Source of the DNA: Desulfosporosinus sp.
Lineage (GTDB): Bacteria > Campylobacterota > Campylobacteria > Campylobacterales > Arcobacteraceae
Length of the DNA stretch: 40,041 nucleotides
Direction of reading: 5' to 3'
Assembly: GCA_020719775.1 (NCBI GenBank)
Contig: DYPS01000015.1
Coordinates: 1 to 40,041 of the forward strand
A program made the position numbers and the translations under genes. The notes under the pieces are model-generated. The model made no database searches, was not told the origin of the DNA, and saw only the letters and a program-made list of their open reading frames with translations. Shown one piece after another: positions 5,913 to 40,041 of this stretch (within the stretch, counting starts at the first letter, position 1; the number at the start of each line of letters is the position of its first letter).

Positions 5913-7298
5913 TCAGTCGATAGGAACCCATGCTTTTTCAGAAAGGTTGAAGTCTTAACTTACACTGTTTAATGGCTTTCTAGCTATGTCGATTCTTCCT
6001 CCGGTTCTTGGAAGTTGTATTTCGATATGTTCCTTGACAACTTCAGCTTTAGCGTTGAAGATAGCAAGAGATTCTCCTTAAACGATATTCTTATCGTCGA
6101 AAAAGAAGGCGTTTGAAACACCAGTGTTATCACCAATAACAACTCGAACATTCTTTCCAACTGGAGTGACTGAAATCACCTAAATTTATTAAATATGTAC
6201 CTTAACGATGAGATTGAGTTTAAAATCTCCAGGAGTGATTTCCTTAATTGAAGTCCATTGCATGGGAGCTCTTCTTTCTCCTCTGTTTTCCTCTCTCTTT
6301 TCTTGATATCTTGATGTGTTGCCAGTTCCCTCATTTCTATTGTTTCTATCGTAATCTCTGTCATAAGTTCTCTCGTTGTTTCTTCTGTTGTCTCTTCTGT
6401 CGTTGTTGTAGGGTTTTCTTTCTTCGCCTCCATTTCGATTATCATTTCTTCTATCAAGATCTCGATTATTGTTTCGTCTATCATCTTTTCTGTCATCATT
6501 TCTTGGAGGTCTTTCGGCTTTAGAATCATTTCTATTATCATTTATTCTAGGTCTATCCTAATTTCTAGGTTTTTAAGTTCTATCCTCTCTATTAGGTCTC
6601 TCAACTCTATCTTATCTTTTTGGTCTCTCGTCTCTATCTTCTCTCTTTGGTCGCTCTTCTCTATTATCTCTTCTGGGCTCTCTTTGTTCTCTTTGTTCTC
6701 TAGGTTCTCTTGGTTCTCTAGGTCCTTTTGGTTCTCTTGGTTCTCTTTGTTCTCTTGGCTATCTTCTATAATCACCTTCTCTTCTATTGTTACCTTATCT
6801 TCTATTATCTCCTTATCTTCTGTTATCATTGTCTCCTCTAGCTCTGTTGTTATCTCTTCTAAGTCCTCCTCTATTGTTTCCTCTATTGTTTCTTACCTGA
6901 TTTCTACGTGGTTTATCTTCAAGTTTGTGTTCAACACTTGAGATATTATAAGCTTCTGAAGCATTCACAGTCACATCCTTTTCTAGAGTAACTCTTCCAA
7001 AGAGATCAATTTCGAGGGAAATATGATCTTTGATAAATCTTTTAACACCATTGCGAATAGCAACGACGTTACCTTTTTCAATGTGTTGGGCATTCTCTCC
7101 TTTAAAAAAAGCTTTTGCTGATCCAGTTTCATCAGCAACAACACAATCAACCATAGGGATTTTCAAACCATCTCTAGTGTCGATGATTTTTTTTTCAGTG
7201 CTGACAACTTTCACATAGACATTGTATCCACTGCGAGAAGTCTCAATATCCTTGACTTTGATGAACTTCGGAACTTGAAGTTGAGGTTTTTCAGACAT
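5913..7298 (-). CDS. Double OB-fold protein with Arg-rich mixed-charge linker (454 aa, one 21-nt intron)
   Basis: ATG 7298-7296 to TGA 5915-5913, intron 6180-6200 (21 nt), spliced length 1,365 nt. Residues ~1-110 form an OB-fold (PKFIKVKDIETSRSGYNVYV, KIPMVDCVVADETGSAKAFF, LEIDLFGRV), resembling the plant At4g28440-type ssDNA-binding-like family. A second OB-fold at ~355-450 has the same order (LIVKVISVTPVGKNVRVVIG, DNTGVSNAFF, IQLPRTGGRIDI). Between them lie ~190 low-complexity residues rich in Arg, Asn, Asp, Glu and Pro (RREGDN, REPREQ, RPKRED units). This suggests a nucleic-acid-binding protein with a disordered, possibly condensate-forming linker. Exact substrate (ssDNA or RNA) is inference. 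Confidence 0.82.
6230..6850 (-). repeat. Low-complexity Arg/Glu/Asp/Asn-coding tract
   Basis: Degenerate tandem coding repeats inside the OB-fold gene. On the plus strand they appear as long runs of TCTCT/TTCTCT-like pyrimidine repeats. They encode repeated RRE, REP, REQ, DNR and EDR units. The strand asymmetry (purine-rich coding strand) is striking and extends for about 600 bp. Confidence 0.75.
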
Positions 7299-7589
7299 TA
7301 TTTGTTGAAACAAAATTAATTAGAATCTAATTCTTTGACTCACTAATCAAATCAATAATTTTTACAAAATTAATTACAATATTTCTTATTTTATTTTTAT
7401 TGTTCAATGAACAACTAAGAATTATCTATTTTTTTAAAATAATTTATAAATGAAATACATCTAATCATCAAATTAAAAATTATTTACTTAAAACTTCTGT
7501 ATTTTTATTTATTCTATTTTATGACATTAAAATTGATTTGTTATGTGTTGTTTTCTTCGAATATATAAATTTCGATTCTATTTCTGTGA
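7299..7589. promoter_or_regulatory. Divergent promoter region, OB-fold protein / Cys-rich protein
   Basis: 291 bp of AT-rich DNA between two divergent start codons. No specific element can be named, but both promoters must lie here. Confidence 0.4.
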
Positions 7590-10500
7590 ATGAAGATCAT
7601 CACTATCGTACTACTGTTAAGCTTGACACTTGCTCAACAGTGTAGCAAAGGAGGACTACTTTGCACTGAAGGAAAATGCCATTATCCTCGCTATGTGGAA
7701 GGATGTCTTAACTATGGACTTGATGATTCATGTTCAGAATGTTAATACAGTATTTATTTCTTCATGTAGATTATCAACTCAAAAACGGATTATGCTTTTA
7801 TTCCCCTAATAATTATGGACTTGATTGTTGTACTAAGTTCGACAATAGCAGTTTTTGTATTCAATGTTCTAAAGGTCTTCTCTCCAATCCAACAACAGGG
7901 CTTTGTGAAGATAAAAAGATTGTTGGATGTATTAGAAAGGACCAAAATGGATGTACAGTTTGTGCTTCAAACTTTGATTTGATATCTGGAAATTGCGTTA
8001 AAACAGTAGTAGGATGTACAGCATTCGATAAACAATTTAACTGTATTTCTTGTGATAACACTTCAACTCTACTTAATGGGGTATGTGTTCTCATAACCAA
8101 TGTTGTTAGCGTACAAAATTGTCAAACTAATAACTAATTTGGCTGTGCCGAATGTATAGTTGGATATAGACTTGATATTGATGGCTCTTGTAAACCAAGT
8201 GGAATCGTTGGTTGCATAAAATACAATTTGAAAGGAGAGTGCCTTCAATGTTTCAATCCATATTATCAACTCTTTAGTGGAAGATGTGCAATTGTAGGAT
8301 GTCTTCAAGCTGAAGGTTTGGCTTGCAAATTATGTGACTCATCCTTTGGGTTTATTCTAAATAATCAAAGATGCTAAATTCCCAATTGTCTCTATTTTTC
8401 TTCAACAGGTTGTTCTAATTGCAAAAATGGATTAATTGCAGGTTCTTGGGGTTGCAAAACAGGCGGAGAAAAAGTATGCCTTATTTGCAAAATTGATGAA
8501 TTTTTAGGAAAAGATGGTATTTGCTACAAAAAAGATGTTCATTGTAGTCAATATAAAAATGGAATTTGTCAAAAATGTTGTGATACTTACTTCTTAAATA
8601 CCAATTTTGTTTGCGAGGCCAAACAATATGGATGTGTCTATGCAAATGGACTATGTAGCTCTTGTCTAGTTCCTTTCATTTTCAGCTCAAATAAGTGTTT
8701 AATATAAGGATGTCAATAATATTGTGATCAAGGTTGCAAAAAATGTGACTCCAGATTAATCCTTAACAATTTTATTTGCAAATTACCAAATTGCGATCAA
8801 ATTTCAGGAATATCTTGTGTCAAATGCTCTGACGGATTTCAATTTGACTCCAATAACAATTGTGTTTCAGTTGATCCCTATTGCTCAATTAAAAATTCCC
8901 TCAATCAATGCTTAAAATGTCAAGATGGTTATCAGCTAAATTCTGACGGAAGATGTATCGTTTCTAAGTTAGGATGTAATTATGTTGATGGTCGTTGTAC
9001 TTCCTGCAGAGCTCCTTTTATGTATACACCTGAAAGTGAAAGTTGCCAAATCGATGGTTGTCTTACTTATTTTATTGGTGGTTGTAATAAATGTACTGAT
9101 GGATATAATTTTTTATATAATAGCTGTAAGATTCCAAACTGTTTGGTTTCAAAGCTTGGAAAATGTCTTCAATGTGACCCTGACTATGTTTTTAGATCGG
9201 ATGGAGTATGCGTTTCAAAAGATTAGTATTGTGATAAAATGGATGAATATGGAACCTGCATTAAATGCATGAGCAGTTATTATTACAGTCAAAAACAACA
9301 TAAATGCCTTAAAAGATCCCCAGGATGCAACTATGATGATCAAGACAATTGTATAACTTGCTAATCTCCATTTTCATTCAATAGTGGAAGATGTAGCATT
9401 GCTGGATGTTTAAATATGATTGAAGATGGTTGTGCTCAGTGCGAATATCCCTATCAATTGACTTCTTCAAAAATATGTAATATCCCTAATTGCCAAGCTT
9501 ATAATAATGGAAAGTGTGTTGCTTGTGTTGCTGGTTTTGTACTCAGTCAAAAAAATCTCTGTGAAACACAAGATCCCTATTGTTTTACCTACAATGATAA
9601 TAGAACTTTTTGTCAAAAATGTGTGAAAGGCTACAGGCTCGATTGCAATGGAAAATGCTAATATGCTGATGAGCATTGTTGGGATTTTGATTCTTTTGGA
9701 ATTTGCATGAACTGTGATAGACTTTTTTACCTGAATTCATACGGAAAATGTCAACTAAGAGACCCTCAATGTTTTACATATACAAATGGATTTTGTTCTT
9801 CATGTAAATCTTACTATTTTGTCCAAGGAGGAGTTTGTATGGCCAATTTAAAAGGATGTCAAATTCAAAAAAGTTACAGTCAATGCCTTACATGTGATGA
9901 TGGTTACACTCTAAAAAATGGAGTTTGCTCAGCTTCAATAACTCAACTATCATGGAATTCTGTTGATATGAATTTTTATGAAGGGGATACTGAAAAAGAG
10001 CAAGAAGATTCTAGAAATACATTTACTGTTAGCTTTACAAATGTAAGTAATTTAGTTCAAGCTCTCGGAACTGGAAAAGCAAGTGTTTTCTATAGTGTTT
10101 CAACCTTGAACAATGCCCAGTACCAAATTGATACTGTTGGAACCAATGGTTGGTCAACTAATAGTCAATCTATAGGATAATTCATTGGAATTCAAGTTAA
10201 AAATTTGCGAACATTTTATGCTGTTGATGTAAAATCATTGACAGGAAGCACCCTTAAAACATTTACAGTTCAATATTCACTCGATGGAAAGAATTTCATT
10301 ACAATTGGAGATTTCAGTCTTCAAGGAATATTTTTAAATGTGGCTACAACCTTTTACTTTAAGCCAGTTGATGCTTATTTTATCAGAATTGTTGTAAAAG
10401 AAGGTGTTCCAAATATAAAATTCGATTTTTATTTCAGTGACTATCAAAAAATAAGTAAGAGCGATTCATTCGATAACAGCTCCTATATTAGCAAAATTGT

Positions 10501-10831
10501 TACTTAGTCCATTGATGGTATTTCTGGAGGAGTTTCAACATGCAGTGATAATGAACTTTGTTGGGCTGGTGTTTAAGCCTGTGAACCAAAAAAAATCAAA
10601 GGATTCAGCCTTGTTTACACAGCTAATTCAACAACTGATTTCGTGACAGAGGTTAAAATTGATTCATCTATTGATGGAATTCATTTTGACTGCTGGAATT
10701 CTTGTAATAGCGTTGCTTTATCAGGATCATCTTTTGTCTTCCCTGCTCCAATTCTTGCAGAAAAGATGCATGTTCATTTTTCGAAGTACACTGGACATCC
10801 CAAATTTGGAATAAAATTCGACTGGGCTTGA
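7590..10831 (+). CDS. Large secreted Cys-rich repeat protein with C-terminal discoidin-like domain (1,073 aa)
   Basis: ATG 7590 to TGA 10829-10831, with one 20-nt intron at 7750-7769 (spliced 3,222 nt). Residues 1-16 are a signal peptide (MKIITIVLLLSLTLAQ). Residues ~17-775 are about two dozen Cys-rich units of ~35-45 residues with a recurring C-x2-C...G-Y...C...GC pattern, as in furin-like/growth-factor-receptor Cys-rich repeats that are abundant in ciliate surface proteins. Residues ~785-1073 lack this pattern and contain a beta-sandwich-like stretch (GFIGIQVKNL-type motif, FTVQYSLDGKNFITI, FKPVDAYFIRIVV) typical of F5/8-type C (discoidin) domains. A second related segment follows. No C-terminal membrane helix is seen, so it is probably secreted or cell-surface associated. 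Confidence 0.85.
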
Positions 10832-13718: not shown

Positions 13719-16026
13719 TCAACGTTTTCGGATCTCTTATCGAGCAGCCAAAAAGGACTGAAGATGATTCATGACATCTTTATCTTTTATGTTCGATGTT
13801 AGTAATGATGAGTCAATACTTTGAGTCATGTTCGATCTCTATCGCTGTTTCAGCATGTACCACTTTGTAAAATCTTTCTTTAACTGCTACATTTGTTTTT
13901 TTTGCATGACTTGAATGCTTTCTATATCGTTTTTTAAGTTTTTAAGTTCGCCAGCTAAAGGCTTTGATTGTTCTTTCAGTCTCATTATTTCATTTTAAAG
14001 CATTTCCTGTTCTGGAGCTTATTGCTATTTTCCTTCTACTAAGTTATTGACTGCATTCTCTCTTTTAATATTTTATAGTTTTTATTTGTTCATTTGAATT
14101 TTAGAACGAATTTCGTTCATTACCTTTCCTAATTCTTTACCTTTACTCATTTTTTATTGAAGTAGTACCATGTTTTTTTACATGGCCTATTGTCTTCTAT
14201 AGGATCTTCTGAATTGTTCAAAAGCTTGAGCTTCATCGAGCATTTGCTAAGATGTTAAATTTACAGGTTTGGTTAGCATTCTCTAAATGTCATCTGCATC
14301 AATTTAACTAAATTGTTTTGTATTATTCAATGTGCTATTATTAGCTTTGGACTCCATCATACTCTTTTTTTCAAATTTGCTTTGCTACTCTTATTTTCTG
14401 ATCATATTTACTTCCTCCTAACTGGGAAATATCATTGGCTTATCTCTAACCACACTTCTCAGCAAATTTTATTATTAATTATTTCTCCGAACAGGGATAA
14501 CTACATCATTGCTATCTCCACTCTTTTTTTTAATTAAACTCACTAATAATGCCAACTCATTATCTCTTTGCTGAACAAGTAATTTTAATCGTTTTATTTA
14601 TTCTCCTGCCCGAGAATTATCTTCTTCATGAAGAACTTGAGATTTCTCCATTCTTTTACTTTCATTATTCATTATATTTTTCTCCTCATTCATACCTTTA
14701 CTTCCTCCTCCTCTCTTTACTATATTTTTTAGATAATAAAAACATTAATTGATTTTCAATCTGTCACTGAGTATGATTGCGGCTGCAGGATCTTCCGATT
14801 CCACATACTAATCAACCATTTTGTGACACTCCTCAATGTCATATTTATCTAACTCATCTTTTACGTCTTCTCCTTTCAACAAAGCTATTTCAGCTTTTAA
14901 CTGGGCATTTTATTTTTTAAGTCGAGCAATAATTATTCCAGGATCGACAGTTTCATTTCTCAATAAATCATTTTTAATTAGAGCAACTCTCATGGCGAAT
15001 TTGCATGTTGCGATGGATTATAAAATATCTTATTCTTTCGGACTCATTGTTGCCACCATTCTCGTCTTACAGTTACCTCCTAGTGAATCTCTAAGCACCA
15101 TTGTCATTAATGATTCTCTATACGGAATATGAACATTTTATCCTCTTGCCTTCTTGTTCAATTATACAATAACTCTTTAAAGAAAATGCAAGCCTAAATT
15201 GATATTAATTGCCTATTTTTAAAGTAATCCTTATACTCCAGTTGTTTTGATTCTTTCAGAACCTGACAAATCCACCAAATGAACTGAAGCCACTGTTCTA
15301 ATGTCAGTGCCTGGCTTAGAAGTTTACAAATTTATTATAAAGATACAATGTGATCGAGTTGACTCATCGTTTTTTGGAGTTTTACTCACAACTCTGTTAG
15401 TATCTCCAATGAACAAATAATTCAAGGCATCTTCTTATGAACTACAAGGAAAACTCAACAAATTTTATAACTGTACTTCTCCATTGGGACCCTCTCTAGG
15501 TGTTACTTTGGGCAAATCTTCCAATTTCTTTGTAACATTTTCGACAGCCAGCAAATCATAACCAGTTGATTGATAAATTTGCAAATAACTAATGTTAACT
15601 TTAATAGTTTCTGATCTTTGCTTGCATTAATTGAATATGTAGCTCAATGTTCGTGGAATCAGTCCTCTATCTTCATAGCTTCCAACTCCTCCCGTCATTG
15701 TGAATGTTTTACCACTACCAGTTTGACCATATGCAAATATAGTGCCATTAAAACCCTCCATTGCTGAGTCTATCACATCTTTAGCTACTTTATCAAATAT
15801 TTTCTCTTGCCTAGTATCCATATCGAACAGCTGATCAAACCGAAATGACCTTTTTTCTTATTTGTTATTAATGTATCCCTCATCACTTTCTTTTGGTATA
15901 AAAAATTCGGCTCTGTTATCCTCCTTGTTAATACCTAGGTAAACTCAATTACTTACTGAATCCTTTATATACGTTTTTATGCGGCCTTATCCTAAGAATG
16001 ATTTAAATGGCAGAATTTTTAGACAT
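13719..16026 (-). CDS. Kinesin-9 family motor, KIF6-like (761 aa, one 22-nt intron)
   Basis: ATG 16026-16024 to TGA 13721-13719, intron 15935-15956 (22 nt), spliced 2,286 nt. The motor domain (~5-370) starts [13 protein letters not shown], then the P-loop [14 protein letters not shown] near residue 88, NDESTRSHC (switch I), [10 protein letters not shown] (switch II), [20 protein letters not shown], and [12 protein letters not shown] leading into a neck. The insert and wording (YINNK before the P-loop, [16 protein letters not shown]) match KIF6/kinesin-9A. The switch-II-proximal KEA Glu is TAG at 15213-15215. Coiled coils follow, with a C-terminal FEQFRRSYR segment shared with KIF6/KIF9. Kinesin-9 motors act in cilia, on axonemal doublets or central pair. 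Confidence 0.93.
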
Positions 16027-25816: not shown

Positions 25817-26827
25817 ATGGAGCATCGCATCTTCGGCAAAGAGCTGACTAATCTACAAGAAGCTGACCCAAATAGATACAAACGCAATTACTCTTTTCTA
25901 CATGGAGACCGCCTTCGCGATCATAGCCTCAATGCCAACAATCTCAACAAGGGCAACGTCACCAACAGACTCTCGAACCGCAGTCAAATCGTGCGTGAGT
26001 AAAAGAAAGCTCCAGAAGCGCGAATTTAATTGACCGATCCTCAAATGGTTCCATAATATTTCTTTGAGAATATGCAATTCATGAAGCAAAAAGAGAAAGA
26101 AACCTATACTCTCACTAATTATATTCCAACCCATAAGACCATTTCCGAACAATCAAGAGCCAAGCTAATCGACTGGCTCAGTGAACTTCATTACAAATAT
26201 AAAATGTTCCCTGAAACAATTTTCACTATAGTTTCTCTTGTTGATCAATATCTTAGTCTTAAAGAAATACCACTTAGTGAACTGCAACTAGTAGGTGTTG
26301 CTGCTTTGTATATTGCTGCTAAGTTTTAATAGACTTATCAAGTTCCTCAAGTCAAACAATTAGTTTCATGTTGTGCTGGTCAATATACTTCAACTCAAAT
26401 TTTATAAATGGAAGCAGATATCATCAAAATGCTTAATTTCGAATTGATTGTCAACTCAACTTATAAATTCTTTGAGCCTTTGGCTAAAATTATAGGTCTC
26501 TAGCCTAAAAATCAGCATTTGGCTCAATATGTACTTGAGTTGGCTATTCTTCAACCTCGTTTCCTAAATTACGCTCCTAGTCTGATGGCTTCTGCTTCGA
26601 TTTATTTGATAAAAAAGATTCGCAAAAGCTAAACTAATTGGAGTGATTTAATGACATCAATGGTTGGCTACAAATAAAATGAACTAAAGTCTTGTGCAAA
26701 AGAGCTTTGCAACTTACTTGAAGGAGCTGCTGATATCTAAAACAGCAAATCAATCAAGAAAAAGTTCTCACTTCCTGCTTTTCATGAGGTTACTAGAATT
26801 AAGCTTGAGAGAAAATAGAAGAAATGA
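25817..26827 (+). CDS. Mitotic (A/B-type) cyclin (336 aa)
   Basis: A single exon, ATG 25817 to TGA 26825-26827. Residues ~85-210 are the cyclin N-box: Y-F-F-E-N-M, then RAKLIDWLSELHYKYKMFPE and TIFTIVSLVDQYLSLKEIPL, containing the MRAILIDWL-like signature and the Lys/Glu pair that contacts the Cdk. Next come LQLVGVAALYIAAKFEETY and ILEMEADIIKMLNFEL. The KFEE Glu pair is TAA TAG at 26327-26332. The C-terminal cyclin box follows (YVLELAILQPRFLNYAPSLM). The arrangement fits cyclin A/B-type partners of Cdk1. An N-terminal RxxL destruction box may be present (NRLSNRSQ is the closest), which I cannot confirm. Confidence 0.92.
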
Positions 26828-26941
26828 TAATTAAATTTAATATTGTTTGAATTATTACTAACAAATAGTATATTGAATAGAATCAAAATAAATAGTTTAA
26901 AAAGATATAATAAAGGTAATACGGATAAATTACAATCACAA

Positions 26942-29900
26942 TCAAAGTTTAGACAATGTTTGCACTTCTTTTAAAGATGACTTGGCCACTTCCATTGGAC
27001 TCAATACTGAACTATATACGCTTTTTCTGAAGAATTTAATATTGTTCTACAAGCCCTACAACATTTAGATAGAACATATGACTTCCACAATTGATTCTTT
27101 CTTCTTACCCCCTGCAATTAATTTGATTATTCCTGCTTTTTTATAGGCCTAAAAAGTGTTTTTAATTGATTCCAAAGAGCAAGCTTCATAATCCTAAATC
27201 ACCTTTTCTTAATATAAAGATTCCATAAACCACTGAACTGTATCAAAAAATTTATTTAAAGAAGCAGTTTCATGCTTTCTCTATTGACTGCGAGCAATCG
27301 TAATGATATATACCAAAGAAGCCCAATAGCATTCTATTTGAGATTTTAAGAGGGAACAGAAGAAAGCAATCATTCTGGGGCCTGCAGAACTTATAACAAT
27401 TTTATTTTAATTTTTAAGCTCAAGGATTAGGTTGTCTTGCATTTTTTGGATGACATTCATGAAATCGTTATAGTTATCAAGACTATAATCAATATAGTAT
27501 TAATTCCGGAGTAATTACATCAGAAATTTAGTTTGCTCATGAATTCTGGAAAGGGGGATACCTTCTTTTGTATTAAGCTGCTAGCCGAATGAAGCAATGA
27601 CGCAACCAACAAAAGCTTATGGTAAAAAGGCATGAGTTAAAGTATTTCTATAGTATGATAGCATTAATATTTTTTGAAACTCATCTCCAGCGCTGATAGT
27701 CAGTTCAAAAATATTTTTCTTTGTCTTAATTGTGATACCACTCAAATATCCAATTGCATTTCTGACTGCAACAGCTGAAGAATTTTAATTAACTCCTCCA
27801 ACTTTGTATCCCTTTTTGAGAATATACTTTGCTAATTCATTCACCATTTTAATTAATAGATCTTAGCTAATTCCCTTTCGATACAGAAGCAATACTGATG
27901 AAACAATAGCTGTGGACATTATTACAGTTCCATTTGTCATTCTTGTAATTATTTCTTTACCAAGTTTGCCAACTAATAACTTTCTGAATTATGGTCCTTC
28001 TCCTGTTCGGCCATTATTAATTTATATGTTTCTTATTTAATTTGCAAATTATCTTGCCATCATTGGCTTGCAAATCTAAACGTAAACGCTACCATGGTTG
28101 ATCTTCAACTGAGGCATTGCTTTTATAACTCTCCATAAAGACTCTGCTACTTTTTATTATCCTAAAAGCTATCCGGGGAATGTATCACCTTCAAGAACTT
28201 TTTAATAATTTACAGTCATTGGGATTAAACAAACTTCTGGTACTTTACCATGAACTAAGGTGTCTAATACAATATTAAGTATTTCAAATCTGGGAGCCAG
28301 TATTTTACCTGTTCTGGAACGAGTTCCTTAAATAAAAAACTAAAGAGTATTTCCTTCTCTTAATAATAACTAGACATATTTATCGAAAATTATGTGGTAG
28401 AGTCTTGATTCTTAATAAATATTTTTTTGGAAAAAGAAGGCTCCTGAACTGCGAACCAAAAATGGCAATAAATGAGCTTGAAGTAGAACTTAATCAGCGA
28501 CAAAGTTAGGTAGCCTTAGTTTATAGATAAAAAAAATGTAAGAGACTACTAAAAAATCTAGATAGGATCGATGTGTTGGAAGTAATACAATTGGAACATC
28601 ACTATTTTGTTAAATTTATCGAATTTGTTCAAGCATTTCCATATTTATGTTTATTTTTTAGAAAATACTTTTGAATGCTTTGTGGATTGTCCAAGCCATT
28701 GTTCGAATGACTGGAGCTTTAACTTCTCCAATAATATATTATATTAATTTTTAAGCTTAAAGTTTAGTTGAAAGAGTTGCTTTTTCAATTGTAGTCTTGT
28801 TTTTTTAGCTAAATTTCAAAGCCTCAGATTATATTGCTTTGAGTACTCTACTTGATGATAGAATTTTAGTTTTCATTTATGCAATAATTTTTTTGCGATT
28901 GAAAGGAATCTAAGTATTTAAGGCCCATTTTAAATCAGCAAAATAATCGTCTTAAGAATGGAGTCTTAGTGGATTCGAATTCAAAGAAGGCATTTCTACA
29001 TTTTCCTTGAGGATATATTTTTGAATCCCATAATTATTGATTTGAACATATCGTCTTATGTCTATTTCAGCAATATCAATCAAATATTATTTTCTTTATT
29101 ACGGAGTTAAAAAATCCCAAAGTTTTTTGAAATTTTTGCATTAATAGATCCATTCATTTCTTACAAAAAATTAAAATATTTTAGCTACTTATTATCCTCT
29201 CTTTATAGTTTTATTCATTTTTTGAGCATTTTTTTCATGCTGCTTGCCTAAAAATGGAGCAAGTCTCAGGTAAGCTTGAACAGGAATTTGCCTTTGAAGC
29301 TTTTTCAATCTAATTATCCATTCATTTTCTGTTACTGTGACGTATGCCTTTCCAACTTTCGATTGAGAAACATTAGAGTTCCAAAATTTAATTACTTCTT
29401 CTTTAATCTCTCCCCACGTCAATGGATTTCTATCAGATGATCCAACATGATATATAGGCAAATTTTTTGCCCCGAAATTCAATGCACTTGCAACAATAAT
29501 AGTTGCAACTACAACATCAACAGGAACAGTATCTCCTATTTTTTTTAAATTTCCCTTTAGCTATTTAACTATACCCAATCCTACAAACATGAACAGAGCA
29601 GCTGCAGCCGCAATACTATCAATCCAACCTGGAAATGGCTAAAGAAAACTTGTATTGATAATTGCAGGGCGAACAATACAGACAGGTAGATCTCCTTGTC
29701 TTTTTCTCATAAGTCTTTCACATAAATTTTTAGTGTAAGTATAAGTATTTGGATACTATCCTAATAACTTAGGAGTGTTAGCAATAAGTTAGCTGAGGGG
29801 CAAAGATTACAGATATTTAATTTGTTGTTCAGGGTCAACATCTAAATATATTTCTAAGTACCTTTATCATAAATTTATTATTTAATTAGTCCTCTTTGAT

Positions 29901-30410
29901 CACAGTTGACATAGCAAGTTGAAATATGCGTGAAAATATGAAGTTTCTTCACTTTTCTGGCTAATTCTAGCATTCTTAGAGATCCCCTAATATTACTATC
30001 GATAGCATGATCAATCCTAGCATTGAAATCTATGCTGGCAGCGCAGTTAATTATGATGTGGCAGTTCTAAATTAGCTATTCGAGGATAGCTTTGCTTAAG
30101 CCTAACTACTATTTTTGAAGATCACCTTGACTAAATAGATGTTTGAATACATCGGTATAATTTTATTTTGAATAAATTCGTCAAATCTTCCCTTGTGGAT
30201 GTTGCGAAGTCGATCGAAACAAGGACTACTCACTATTTCCTTCTTAAATCTTTAGTGCAAATTAGAACCTTATTTGGCTCTAATGAGAACATAGATTTTG
30301 TCGACGCAGCTTAGGGAATATAGAAATTTTTAGAGTAAAACTTTACCAAGAAAGCCTGTCGTTCCTGTAATGAGCACTCTTTTGCCTGAAAATCTTTACT
30401 TGATTGACAT
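26942..30410 (-). CDS. FARAT: Bifunctional fatty acyl-CoA reductase / DHAP acyltransferase, ether-lipid synthesis (1,142 aa, PTS1)
   Basis: ATG 30410-30408 to TGA 26944-26942. Introns at 30131-30150 and 29842-29861 (20 nt each) give 3,429 nt. N-terminal half: fatty acyl-CoA reductase with Rossmann GTTGFLGKVLL (~15-25), NCAASIDFNARIDHAID, the active-site Y-x3-K in YPNTYTYTKNLCERL (~210) and PIYHVGSSDRNPLTWGEI (~310). C-terminal half: GPAT/DHAPAT-type acyltransferase with LPTHRSYLDFL (~593) and FIEGTRSRTGK (~680), its Glu being TAA 28328-28330. The last three residues are SKL, a peroxisomal PTS1 signal. A fused FAR-DHAPAT (FARAT) is known from Tetrahymena thermophila. It supplies fatty alcohol and acyl-DHAP for ether lipids. 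Confidence 0.93.
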
Positions 30411-30672
30411 ATATTCAACACTGACAATAACAACTATAAAATATATCCATCGACGTATTAATCATAAACAGCTGTAAACAGCATCCAGTTGGCTAAAATT
30501 ATTTTTATTTATTAAAAAATAAGATTTTATTTATTAAAAGAGATAAATACACAAAAAAGAAAATAGTTGTCCAATTTTGTTTTAGTTCGACAATATCCTG
30601 TTGAGTATATTTTAAAAGCAATTGATACTATCTCTTGAATATTAGTAGGACAATTGTGTTAAGTGTTTACAA

Positions 30673-30757
30673 CCGACCATAGCTCAGCTGGTAGAGCGGA
30701 GGACTGTAGAGTTGCGTGGTTATCCTTAGGTCGCTGGTTCGATTCCGGCTGGTCGGA
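30673..30757 (+). tRNA. tRNA-Tyr (GTA) with a 12-nt intron
   Basis: Acceptor stem CCGACCA (30673-30679) pairs with TGGTCGG (30750-30756), discriminator A at 30757. The D-arm contains A-box TAGCTCAGCTGG and the T-arm contains B-box GGTTCGATTCC. The anticodon GTA is at 30706-30708. A 12-nt intron (30710-30721) interrupts the anticodon loop after position 37, the canonical eukaryotic site. Excising it gives a 73-nt tRNA with anticodon stem GAGGA/TCCTT. A T-run terminates transcription immediately downstream. Confidence 0.95.
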
Positions 30758-30758
30758 G

Positions 30759-30764
30759 TTTTTT
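30759..30764 (+). terminator. RNA polymerase III terminator of tRNA-Tyr
   Basis: Six consecutive T residues one base after the discriminator base, the expected Pol III termination signal. Confidence 0.85.
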
Positions 30765-30942
30765 ATAAATCTTCATTTTTTGTTGTTGATGTAAAAAATC
30801 AGTAAATCAAATAACAAGACATCAATATTCAATTAATGTAAGACATTTACTAGCATAACTTTCTTTTATTGATGATAATTTTAGTGATACTTATAATTTT
30901 GTGTCCTTGACAAAAACTTTAATCATTAAATCTTTTTGTTTC

Positions 30943-31458
30943 TCAGTCAAAAGCATAGTACTAGTCTATTCTTGGTAGTAGCAGACTTTTATTTTAACTG
31001 CGTCTAGCTCTGCTTTGAGAATGAGACAATTATGGGTTCGTAATGTTGCTGTTTGAGTTATTATAGCTGCGCATTCTGACTATCCTTTCAACAATTATAT
31101 CATTCTCTTGCTGAAGATTGCGATCCTTACGTTCTCGTTGCATTTTCCTCGAATGCATGTTCAATGTGAACAATTTCTTTTGCAATTCCTCGTCAGTAGA
31201 GTGTCCGAAAGAACTCTTTCTTTGACTTATTTCTGCTATTCTACGAATGAGGCGCATGTTCTACATTTCCTGTCTTCTTTTTTGTTATTTTTCATATGCA
31301 TTAATGTGTTTTTAAAGCTTTACTTTTCTATTAAGATATTCGGATAATGAATTTTTGGGTGATTTTCTATCTATTTTGAATTGAAGAGGAGAAGCTTCGC
31401 CTTAAGGATCAGTTCTATCGATGTCACTTGCTTTTTCATGATGAGTGTCACTGCTCAT
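30943..31458 (-). CDS. Small charged protein, possibly CFAP97-like (171 aa)
   Basis: A single exon, ATG 31458-31456 to TGA 30945-30943. The central ~100 residues are basic and helical. Two helix segments share an E-N/M-x-x-I-x-R-I pattern (EMENMRLIRRIAEISQRK and LQQENDIIVERIVRMRS), reminiscent of the repeated EN..LL.RI motif of CFAP97/hemingway-type ciliary proteins. The tail is Ser/Arg-rich (SHSQSRARRSENKS). No membrane or enzyme motif is seen. The family assignment is tentative. A ciliary or cytoskeletal role would fit several neighbours. It lies 178 bp downstream of the tRNA terminator, on the opposite strand. Confidence 0.62.
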
Positions 31459-31943
31459 AAATAAAATAATAACTAAATTAATAATAATTCACAAGATAGC
31501 TTCGACAATTATTATTTTTATTTTTTAATTAAAATTATTACTTAATCTTCATTTTAAATAGAAGAGGATGTATTTTTATGGTTTGAACAAAGCAATTGAT
31601 GCTGAGAAGTAAATGCATCATTGACTCATTAATTTTTAATTTAGATTCAAAATGTGATGAATCCACTATAAACAACTAAATATTGTGGGTTTGAACCATT
31701 TTTACAATAAAAAGTTTACACTTTAGTATTTTCGTTTTTAAGACTCAAAAATAATTATCGTGAAAAATGATTCAAAAAAAATGAAATTTTGATAATAAAG
31801 TTGATATTGTTTGTTCTGCAGAGCCAATTATGTCAAAGAGAACATAAAAAATGAAGATAAGAATTGAACAAAATGATCATGAAATATTGTCATTAATTTT
31901 GAATAGAAATCAGCGAATTATAATTAATTTTATAGCAAAAGAT
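31459..31943. other. Divergent intergenic region, no feature seen
   Basis: 485 bp of AT-rich DNA between the CFAP97-like and secreted-protein genes, which diverge. In-frame codons exist upstream of 31944 from 31851, but they would bury the signal peptide, so they are treated as 5' flank. Confidence 0.45.
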
Positions 31944-36196: not shown

Positions 36197-39100
36197 TCAT
36201 ATAAACCCAATAGGAGTTTCAGTTCCTGTTGTGGGTTTGACCATAGGATGAAATTTAACTTCTGGGAATGAGTTAACATTTCGAATCTTAATAACTGCCA
36301 TAGCAGACTGCATTTCTTCTCCCTGTTGTTCTTATCTTTCCCCTTCACATCCCACAGTGACTGATTATTATTGTATGTTTTATCTTTCAATATTGAAGAA
36401 TTTCAATACAAAGTTCACAGGAATGGATATTGATCCCAAAATTAAACAAATAAGCCATTGTTGAGGAGTAAGCCCGTAATTAGAGTAGACATGAAAGGCT
36501 CCACCTGTGAAAGTAATCAACAGAATTTGAAGAACGAATATTGCAATAACTATAATGATAAAAAATTTATTAGTTGTTATTCCACTAAAAATGTTGATTT
36601 CTTCATGATTTTTTCTGCAATTAATGAAATTAAAAATCTGAAGCATGACAAAGGTGTTGAAGACAAATGTTAAATGTCTCGAATAAATATCAGTCTCATC
36701 ATAAACTGATTGATAGTCATATGATCCTGATATTGTAATTAATCTTCCACTTCTGACTGTACCACCGACAACTCCGTTGTGCCATTTCCATTCAGGTTTT
36801 AAAGCAAAAATACCTGAATCATAGGAATCGACATATTCAGGAATAATTTTTTATCCAGCAAATATGACAACTGAGAGAACAATTAATTGAAGAATAGCTT
36901 GTCCTATTATGTGTTTCATCATAGTTTTAGTAATTATATGCTAATTTCTTTTGTGAGGTTTACGCTAAAGTAATTATTCAGTCGGAGTTTAAGTTGCCAA
37001 GGCAAGTGAAGCCAATGTATCCATAATCAAATTTATCCAAAGCATTTGAATAGGGGCCAATATTTGCTGTTTAAGGAGAGCTGCTCCCATTAGAGTAATT
37101 ACAACTGCCACAATATTCACAGTCAGTTGAAATTGAATGAATTTACTAATTGAGTCATAGATGTTACGACCCCACATTACTGCCTTTACAATTGAATTGA
37201 AATTATCATCAAGCAGAATGATAGCTGCTGCTTCTCTGGCCACTTCAGTACCTGAAATACCCATTGCGAAACCTACATCTGCTTTTTTCAAAGCAGGAGC
37301 GTCATTAGTACCATCTCCAGTTACTGCAACAACTTCTCCTCTTTATTTCAAACCAGTAACGAGGGCATATTTATCTTCAGGGCGAGAACGAGCAAGAACA
37401 AATAAACGATCTTTTAGTTTATCAAATTATTCAGCATTTTCAATTGTATCAATTCTAATTTATTTTCCTTCTGCTTATGCCTGTTTTCTGTCCTTTGCAC
37501 AATTGCAAGTTTTGGTTCTACATTTTTTGCACACAACTCCTCCAATTAAATTTATAAAGTCGACTCCTTCCATTACCAAACTATTGTCTCCATCCTTTAT
37601 AATGCCTACATCTCTTGCAATAGCTCGAGCAGTAATAATATTGTCTCCAGTGACCATACGTACTTTAATTCCAGCTCTATGGCATTTAATAATTGCTCCA
37701 GAAACTTCTTTTCGAGGGATATCTTTAACTCCAAATATATTCAGCATGATCAGTTAGGTTTTTTAGATTTAGAAGATACCTTTTTCATCTTTTGTTTCCA
37801 AATCACAAGTTTGACTTACTTTTTTATATGCCAAGCAGAGCGTTCTTAGCGAATTTTCAGCCATTTTTTTAATGGCCTCTTCCATTTTGGCTTTCATTGA
37901 ATGAGAAATGACTTCAATTTTGTTTGTATTTAAATCATGCCATCTATTACAGCAATTCAAAACCATTTCCGAAGCTCCCTTTACAAATAAGTAGTACTCC
38001 TGATCTTTTTATATCAAAACAGACATTCTTTTTCTGGAAGAACTAAAAGGATACTTTAGGATGGTTGGATATTTTTATCTATAATTGTTATAGTTGATTC
38101 CCATCTTTTAGATATATTTCAATAGGGCTATTTCAGTTGATGAACCTTTTTCTTATGGTTGGAGATTAGCAGTGCTATCAACGCAAGTACCTATTTTGAA
38201 CAGTTAAATCCATTATTCATTTTTAGTTAAATCATCAAAGTTCAATTTTTATTTATGAGTATCAATATCGATGATATTTCCATTCCACATCTGAGTCAAA
38301 GTCATCTTATTCATAGTTAAAGTTCCTGTTTTATCTGAACAAATGTTATTAGCTCCTCCCATCGTCTCACAGGCTTACAATTTTCTGACCAAATTATTAT
38401 CATTCAACATTTGCTTCACTGAAACTGCTAAAGATAAAGTCACAGAAAGAGGAAGTCCTTCAGGAATGGCAACTACAATGACTGTTATAGCCAATATAAA
38501 ATAATCAATTATTTATTTTAAATCGTGACCAGTGCTCCAATTTTTATTTATTCCCTTTTCAATTGCGAATCTTACGAGTAAAATAATGAGAATAATTAAA
38601 GCAGAGTAAAGTCCAAATTTACCAATATCCTTTGCTACAGATTATAGCTTCTATTGCAAAGGAGTCATTGTTTCTTCATCTTGGGTCAAAAGTGCTCTGA
38701 TTTTACCAATACAAGAATTTTCTCCAACAACCAGTATAATCATTTTTCCTTATCCAGTTAAAATTTTGGTGCCACTCAGAAGGATAGGAGAAGGAACTTA
38801 ATGCTTTTCACTCAGATTCCTCTCTCCACTTTGTTAAATTTCTGTTTTTTTCTTTATACAATTTTGCAATATGTTTTTATGCAATGGATCAGTTTATCCA
38901 GTCATTGCACTTTCATCTGCAGTAATTTCATTCGATTCTAGGAGAATGGCATCTGCTGGAACCTCCATACCCTCAGAAATATTGACCACATCTCCTACCA
39001 ATACATCATCTTGATGAATTTCCATTAACTCTCCATCACGGCGTATGGTTACTCTTTTTCTTTAATCTGCTACTCCGTTGAGTTGTTGGAATTGCCTTTA

Positions 39101-39529
39101 CTTTGAATAGTTATTGACAGCTGTAACAAGAGCGCAAATAGCAACGGCGATAAGTACTACAAATCCTTCAATCCAAGCTGTTTTTCTGTCAGTTTAATCT
39201 GCTGTGGCAACTTCTACAACAATAGAAAAGATGCTGGCCACGATTAGAATTTTTAAAATAAAATCATCGAGTGCTTCTTTGAAGAGTTAGCAAAAAGATG
39301 ATAAAGGGGCTTGATACTTTTGATTTGTTCCAAACTTAAGCTTCCGTTAATTGATTGATTAAGGTGCAGAAGAAATTCCTTTTTTATCGTTGGTTTTGAG
39401 AGCTGCACAAAGCCAATGAATATCGTTTCCTCTGAGTGTAAGCAGTTCGATTTATTATGCGAAAGTTCTTGTTTGTGCGCTGGATACGATGCTAATTAAA
39501 TGTTCTTTATCGACATCTAGTTCTACCAT
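36197..39529 (-). CDS. Plasma-membrane-type Ca2+-ATPase (P2B, 1,110 aa, intronless)
   Basis: ATG 39529-39527 to TGA 36199-36197, one uninterrupted frame. It pumps Ca2+ out of the cytosol (or into alveolar/contractile-vacuole membranes in ciliates) by ATP hydrolysis. In order: [20 protein letters not shown] (M1), actuator ADESAMTGE (Glu 212 written TAA, 38894-38896), PEGLPLSV (M4), the phosphorylation site [13 protein letters not shown] with Asp399, FVKGASE (ATP binding), [34 protein letters not shown], and [20 protein letters not shown] (M6) typical of PMCA. An unusual Cys-rich insert ([11 protein letters not shown]) follows [12 protein letters not shown]. The C-terminal tail is ~65 residues, shorter than in animal PMCAs. 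It is the last gene before the right telomere. Confidence 0.96.
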
Positions 39530-40004
39530 TTTCTATCTGGTAATTCTATTTATTTTTAAAAGTGATTCCAACAGCAATATGATCTAAAAAGATCATCTCA
39601 AAATTTGAATTTGAATTATCAACACACTCCTAACAAATAATTGGATGTTTAATTTAGGATTGGATTAACTGAAAAATATAAGCTTAAATCAATGATATTT
39701 ATCACATCTTTATATAATTTCATCGCATCTCTGGTAAATTAAATACTCGTCATTTATTTAACTCAAAGCATTCAACAGTTTTCTATGTATGGAGTGCTCA
39801 AGTTAAAAATGATCTTTTACTTCAACAAACGTGATTAGTGATATTAATTTAGTAGGAGAAATTTTATTATGCTAGTTAGCAGTCTTTACTTAAGTATATG
39901 ATTTAAAATATTTTTGATTCAATGCAAATATGGATCAATAAATTTGATTCAAAATCATTTTATAGAAAGCTATTCAATTATTTCATATTTTATGAACAAA
40001 ATAC
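39530..40004. other. Right subtelomeric spacer / Ca2+-ATPase 5' flank
   Basis: 475 bp of AT-rich unique DNA between the ATPase start codon and the telomere. No subtelomeric repeat family or gene is seen. It must contain the ATPase promoter. Confidence 0.55.
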
Positions 40005-40041
40005 GGGGTTGGGGTTGGGGTTGGGGTTGGGGTTGGGGTTG
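40005..40041. repeat. Right telomere, GGGGTT units
   Basis: Six perfect GGGGTT hexamers plus one base run to the end of the window. The G-rich strand ends 3' outward, as required for a telomere. It is the complement of the repeat at the left end, proving that both ends of the molecule are present. Confidence 0.98.

Follow-up and report, generated by a model that had tools for sequence, protein, structure and literature searches.

In the synthesis of ether lipids, fatty acyl-CoA reductase (FAR) converts acyl-CoA to fatty alcohol, dihydroxyacetone phosphate acyltransferase (DHAPAT) yields acyl-DHAP, and alkyl-DHAP synthase exchanges the acyl chain for the alcohol. The two reactions feeding the synthase (AGPS) are encoded in animals by two genes, FAR1 and GNPAT/DHAPAT. 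A fusion of the two activities (FARAT), the TtFARAT of Tetrahymena thermophila, is reportedly the subject of a 2014 study by Dittrich-Domergue. An account from 2011 had already presented the fusion in T. thermophila under the name ART1 (EAS00429; PMC3143110) and also listed it in Paramecium tetraurelia, Dictyostelium, Polysphondylium, Phytophthora infestans and Naegleria gruberi, an odd distribution that was taken to suggest several gains or losses (PMC3143110). Both activities have been shown, for the respective halves, in the Tetrahymena enzyme (reviewed in PMC9113324). The FARAT of Dictyostelium discoideum (fatA) has the FAR-then-acyltransferase order and a C-terminal SKL, is located in the peroxisomal matrix and initiates ether lipid synthesis; when it is knocked out, MDG, a neutral ether lipid, falls to ∼13% (PMC7375469).

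The gene analyzed here lies on the minus strand at 30,410–26,942 of the window (the whole 40,041-nucleotide stretch of DNA that was analyzed) and is a well-formed, largely ordinary member of this already known fusion family. Judged from its homologues, it is very probably the FARAT orthologue of a peritrich ciliate, encoding a bifunctional peroxisomal matrix enzyme. TtFARAT/ART1, compared by description, is likewise a peroxisomal ciliate protein with an N-terminal FAR and a C-terminal DHAP acyltransferase, whereas TAA and TAG are read as Gln in Tetrahymena and as Glu in the peritrich gene. The amoebozoan D. discoideum FARAT shares the domain order and the SKL but is longer (1,279 residues, with poly-Asn blocks, against 1,142 residues and no poly-Asn). 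FAR1 carries a C-terminal membrane anchor where the peritrich FARAT has its acyltransferase, and bacterial PlsB and human GPAT1 share the acyltransferase and GPAT_C domains and motifs I, III, and IV but have neither the reductase nor a type 1 peroxisomal targeting signal (PTS1), and retain the Arg of motif II.

Gene structure and genetic code

The gene comprises three exons and two 20-nt introns, giving a 3,429-nt coding sequence of 1,142 codons followed by TGA. Exon 1 (30,151–30,410) contains the start codon and the GTTGFLG Rossmann motif of the reductase, exon 2 (29,862–30,130) continues the reductase domain, and exon 3 (26,942–29,841) holds the remainder of the reductase, the junction, the entire acyltransferase and the stop codon. 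The frame shifts twice near the 5′ end, and each shift is accounted for by one GTA...TTTAG intron: removal of intron 1 (30,131–30,150; GTATTC...ATTTAG, GTATTCAAACATCTATTTAG) rebuilds the conserved IIPI/QGDL, and removal of intron 2 (29,842–29,861; GTACTT...ATTTAG, GTACTTAGAAATATATTTAG) rebuilds the conserved IYDK/DVDPE. The sequence-only reading had proposed one 1,142-residue frame, of which the length was exact but the single open frame gives way to three exons. A scan of GTA...TTTAG spacings across 207 kb of contigs from the same ciliate (the window and L046–L065) gave a peak at 20 nt (35 occurrences, compared with 15 at 19 nt, 9 at 21 nt and ∼8 elsewhere), and both FARAT introns are therefore of typical size for this genome. 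The sharpness of the peak also implies an unusually uniform intron size in this peritrich.

Both sets of domains are found in one reading unit, all on the minus strand, and the fusion of a FAR to a GPAT/DHAPAT-type acyltransferase, of the TtFARAT kind, is as the sequence-only reading had proposed. The reductase half comprises the catalytic NAD_binding_4 domain (Pfam PF07993, residues 14–291, E 7.6e-70; 29,498–30,371) and the C-terminal Sterile domain (PF03015, residues 377–456, E 1.6e-15; 29,003–29,242), and matches the fatty acyl-CoA reductase structure 7eoz, with the Rossmann and YxxxK motifs present (GTTGFLG at residue 16 and YTYTK at residue 210). The other half comprises an Acyltransferase domain (PF01553, residues 580–719, E 2.8e-17; 28,214–28,633), with motif I (HRSYLD) at residue 600, and a GPAT_C domain (PF19277, residues 733–1083, E 3.5e-54; 27,122–28,174). 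It is of the PlsB/GPAT1/DHAPAT type, aligning with human GPAT1 (8e4y, E 2.4e-54), the bacterial GPAT 9vuq and E. coli PlsB (23% identity over 564 columns), and its nearest NCBIfam models are PlsB, far below the cut-offs. Motif III (FIEGTRSR, residue 679; 28,313–28,336) was identified by direct reading and in the alignments, and motif IV is also present (LIPMTVNYEKVLEG). The protein ends ...VQTLSKL, so that the claimed SKL (26,945–26,953), a PTS1, can be read directly before the TGA; from the composition of the protein itself, its occurrence by chance has P ∼6e-4.

Under the standard code, there are no open reading frames of 100 residues at 26,000–31,500, and the long minus-strand frame appears only when TAA and TAG are taken as sense codons, of which the coding sequence contains 43 and 18, respectively. 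When the FARAT protein and a calcium ATPase from the same chromosome were aligned to PDB proteins, the ATPase with X at these codons, 59 aligned TAA/TAG columns faced 14 Glu, 7 Asp, 7 Lys, and 3 Gln, with a slight lean toward Glu arising from the FARAT alignments, which carried Glu at TAA/TAG. In those alignments, GAA behaved like TAA/TAG, and CAA stood mostly opposite Gln and Arg. The share of TAG is just 13 columns (2 Glu, 3 Asp, and 0 Gln). Three invariant Glu are written TAA, namely that of the TGES loop of the pump, that of LATEPPTE and, in motif III, that of EGTRSR (Glu681), so the peritrich FARAT writes a catalytic Glu as TAA. On this sequence evidence the code is table 30, that of peritrich nuclei, in which both TAA and TAG are read as Glu and TGA is the sole stop; it is borne out in that TAA/TAG face Glu most often and that invariant Glu sites are written TAA. 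The four motifs claimed earlier (GTTGFLG, YTYTK, HRSYLDF, and FIEGTRSRTGK) were all recovered, the last requiring TAA to be Glu.

Table 6, in which TAA and TAG are Gln, was rejected since it would give FIQGTRSR and since conserved Glu sites are TAA. A Glu-to-Gln change at the Glu of EGTRSR abolishes AGPAT1 activity (PMC4280512). The motif III Glu is kept only if TAA is Glu, and code and predicted activity are thus mutually supportive. Among sampled ciliates, UAR as Glu has a single origin, in peritrichs (PMC10553269), which makes a peritrich the most likely host. A search of 167 kb of other contigs with telomeres gave no suppressor tRNA.

The acyltransferase half and its motif II

Motifs I, III, and IV of the acyltransferase are intact, and the substitution lies in motif II (28,424–28,444), which reads GAFFFQK in the peritrich FARAT compared with GAFFIRR in PlsB. 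Gln648 (codon CAA) stands where human GPAT1, the 9vuq GPAT and E. coli PlsB (Arg354) have Arg, and the residue that follows, Lys649, is the only basic one. At the equivalent Arg in AGPAT1, a change to Ala leaves the enzyme dead and a change to Lys leaves it mostly active (PMC4280512). Because the Arg is Gln here, the DHAPAT activity of the peritrich copy is predicted with a caveat. The motif II change is the sole feature of the gene deserving follow-up, and Gln648 provides a testable detail on how DHAP acyltransferases hold their acceptor.

Motif II has been linked to binding of the acceptor and is one of the places to which DHAPAT deficiency in humans maps (PMC4280512). These observations, together with the replacement of an Arg present in all three comparison proteins, would suit a protein that is FARAT in shape and altered or inactive in its acyltransferase half, with weakened acceptor binding and an output consisting mainly of fatty alcohol or of products of another acceptor. 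Such a protein is unlikely, as the other motifs and the whole of GPAT_C are conserved in a long open frame, which argues that this half is under selection, and Lys649 may provide the needed charge. It is distinctly unlikely that the Arg-to-Gln change has, in the peritrich lineage, given the acyltransferase an altered acceptor site serving another acceptor or holding the phosphate in a new way, in an enzyme that would still be fused and peroxisomal.

The acyltransferase half might instead be a GPAT that uses glycerol-3-phosphate rather than DHAP, with the fusion serving ester lipid synthesis, given that the top structure matches are GPATs and that PlsB models, although far below their cut-offs, are the nearest in NCBIfam. 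The matches included no solved DHAPAT, however, so that a GPAT as top match is little informative, and fusion to a FAR and a PTS1 suit the peroxisomal DHAP route, as in TtFARAT (PMC9113324) and the Dictyostelium enzyme (PMC7375469), making a glycerol-3-phosphate enzyme highly improbable. That two separate genes, or a mis-assembly, have joined a reductase to an acyltransferase is scarcely credible: the junction lies inside exon 3, a single exon of 966 codons free of TGA (P ∼2e-10 in Markov sequence), the chromosome is continuous from telomere to telomere, and other ciliates have the FAR-acyltransferase fusion too (PMC3143110).

Proposed function and distribution of the fusion

As a bifunctional FARAT, the protein would reduce long-chain acyl-CoA with NADPH to fatty alcohol in its N-terminal half and, as predicted from homologues, acylate dihydroxyacetone phosphate in its C-terminal half. 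Fatty alcohol and acyl-DHAP would then be available as both substrates of alkyl-DHAP synthase, the maker of the ether bond. The SKL would direct import into peroxisomes by PEX5, and the placing of both supplies on one SKL-tagged protein could fix their proportion inside the peroxisome. The earlier proposal that the fusion couples the two supplies is favored by the characterized homologues, with Gln648 as the caveat on the DHAPAT step; its placing in peroxisomes agrees with the SKL that is present, the location itself being established for the homologues. The suggested check for an alkyl-DHAP synthase partner gave no ciliate copy in the partial assembly, where a search for the FAD_binding_4 domain returned a sole match, which lacks in-frame TAA/TAG and is taken as bacterial.

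The claim that the fusion predates the split of peritrichs and hymenostomes points in the right direction, but it understates a distribution that had already been published for a wider list of species (PMC3143110). With ciliates, amoebae, an oomycete and Naegleria on that list, the fusion predates the ciliates, arose repeatedly, or was transferred. The addition of a peritrich places it in three oligohymenophorean lineages (hymenostome, peniculid, and peritrich) and leaves the present view of ether lipid synthesis unchanged. A 2025 paper comparing seven peritrich genomes makes no reference in its main text to ether lipids, peroxisomes or fatty acids (PMC12411067), and the gene described here may be the first peritrich FARAT to be singled out, on a non-exhaustive literature search. 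A scan of genome and viral contig collections with a 922-residue exon stretch returned no relatives, a null result that says little since the scan patterns were built from standard codons and relatives written with TAA/TAG could be missed. When the whole protein was searched against 397 genomes from the phylum of the associated bacterium, a narrow test, there was no FAR-GPAT fusion and weak acyltransferase matches were the only result.

Chromosome and assembly setting

The window begins with CCCCAA repeats (1–42) and ends with GGGGTT repeats (40,002–40,041), and these telomere repeats at both ends identify it as a complete macronuclear chromosome. The assembly that holds it (2.85 Mb in 228 contigs) is rated 100% complete by prokaryote markers and includes at least about 20 other telomere-capped contigs, ∼6 to 45 kb in length. 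In almost all of these, long frames appear only with TGA as the sole stop. The assembly is most likely a bacterium together with a sample of ciliate macronucleus, its ciliate chromosomes being apparent contamination. A pattern search of the assembly returned no 18S match, and the assembly probably covers part of the ciliate genome only.

Several other features were observed on the chromosome. A eukaryotic-type tRNA with an anticodon-loop intron lies at 30,673–30,757, a short way upstream of FARAT and on the opposite strand; it is probably tRNA-Tyr(GTA), and a similar call was made at 7,532–7,616 of contig L048. The calcium ATPase, of the plasma-membrane type, is encoded on the minus strand at 36,197–39,529, with the Glu of its TGES loop written TAA. 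A homologue of kinesin-9 (KIF9) lies on the minus strand at 13,719–15,821, its 5′ end probably in an additional exon. The protein encoded at 5,913–7,298 has an Ssb-like OB fold near its N terminus followed by long Arg/Asp/Asn-rich repeats, and that encoded at 7,730–10,831 is a Cys-rich repeat protein with an F5/8 type C domain at its C terminus.
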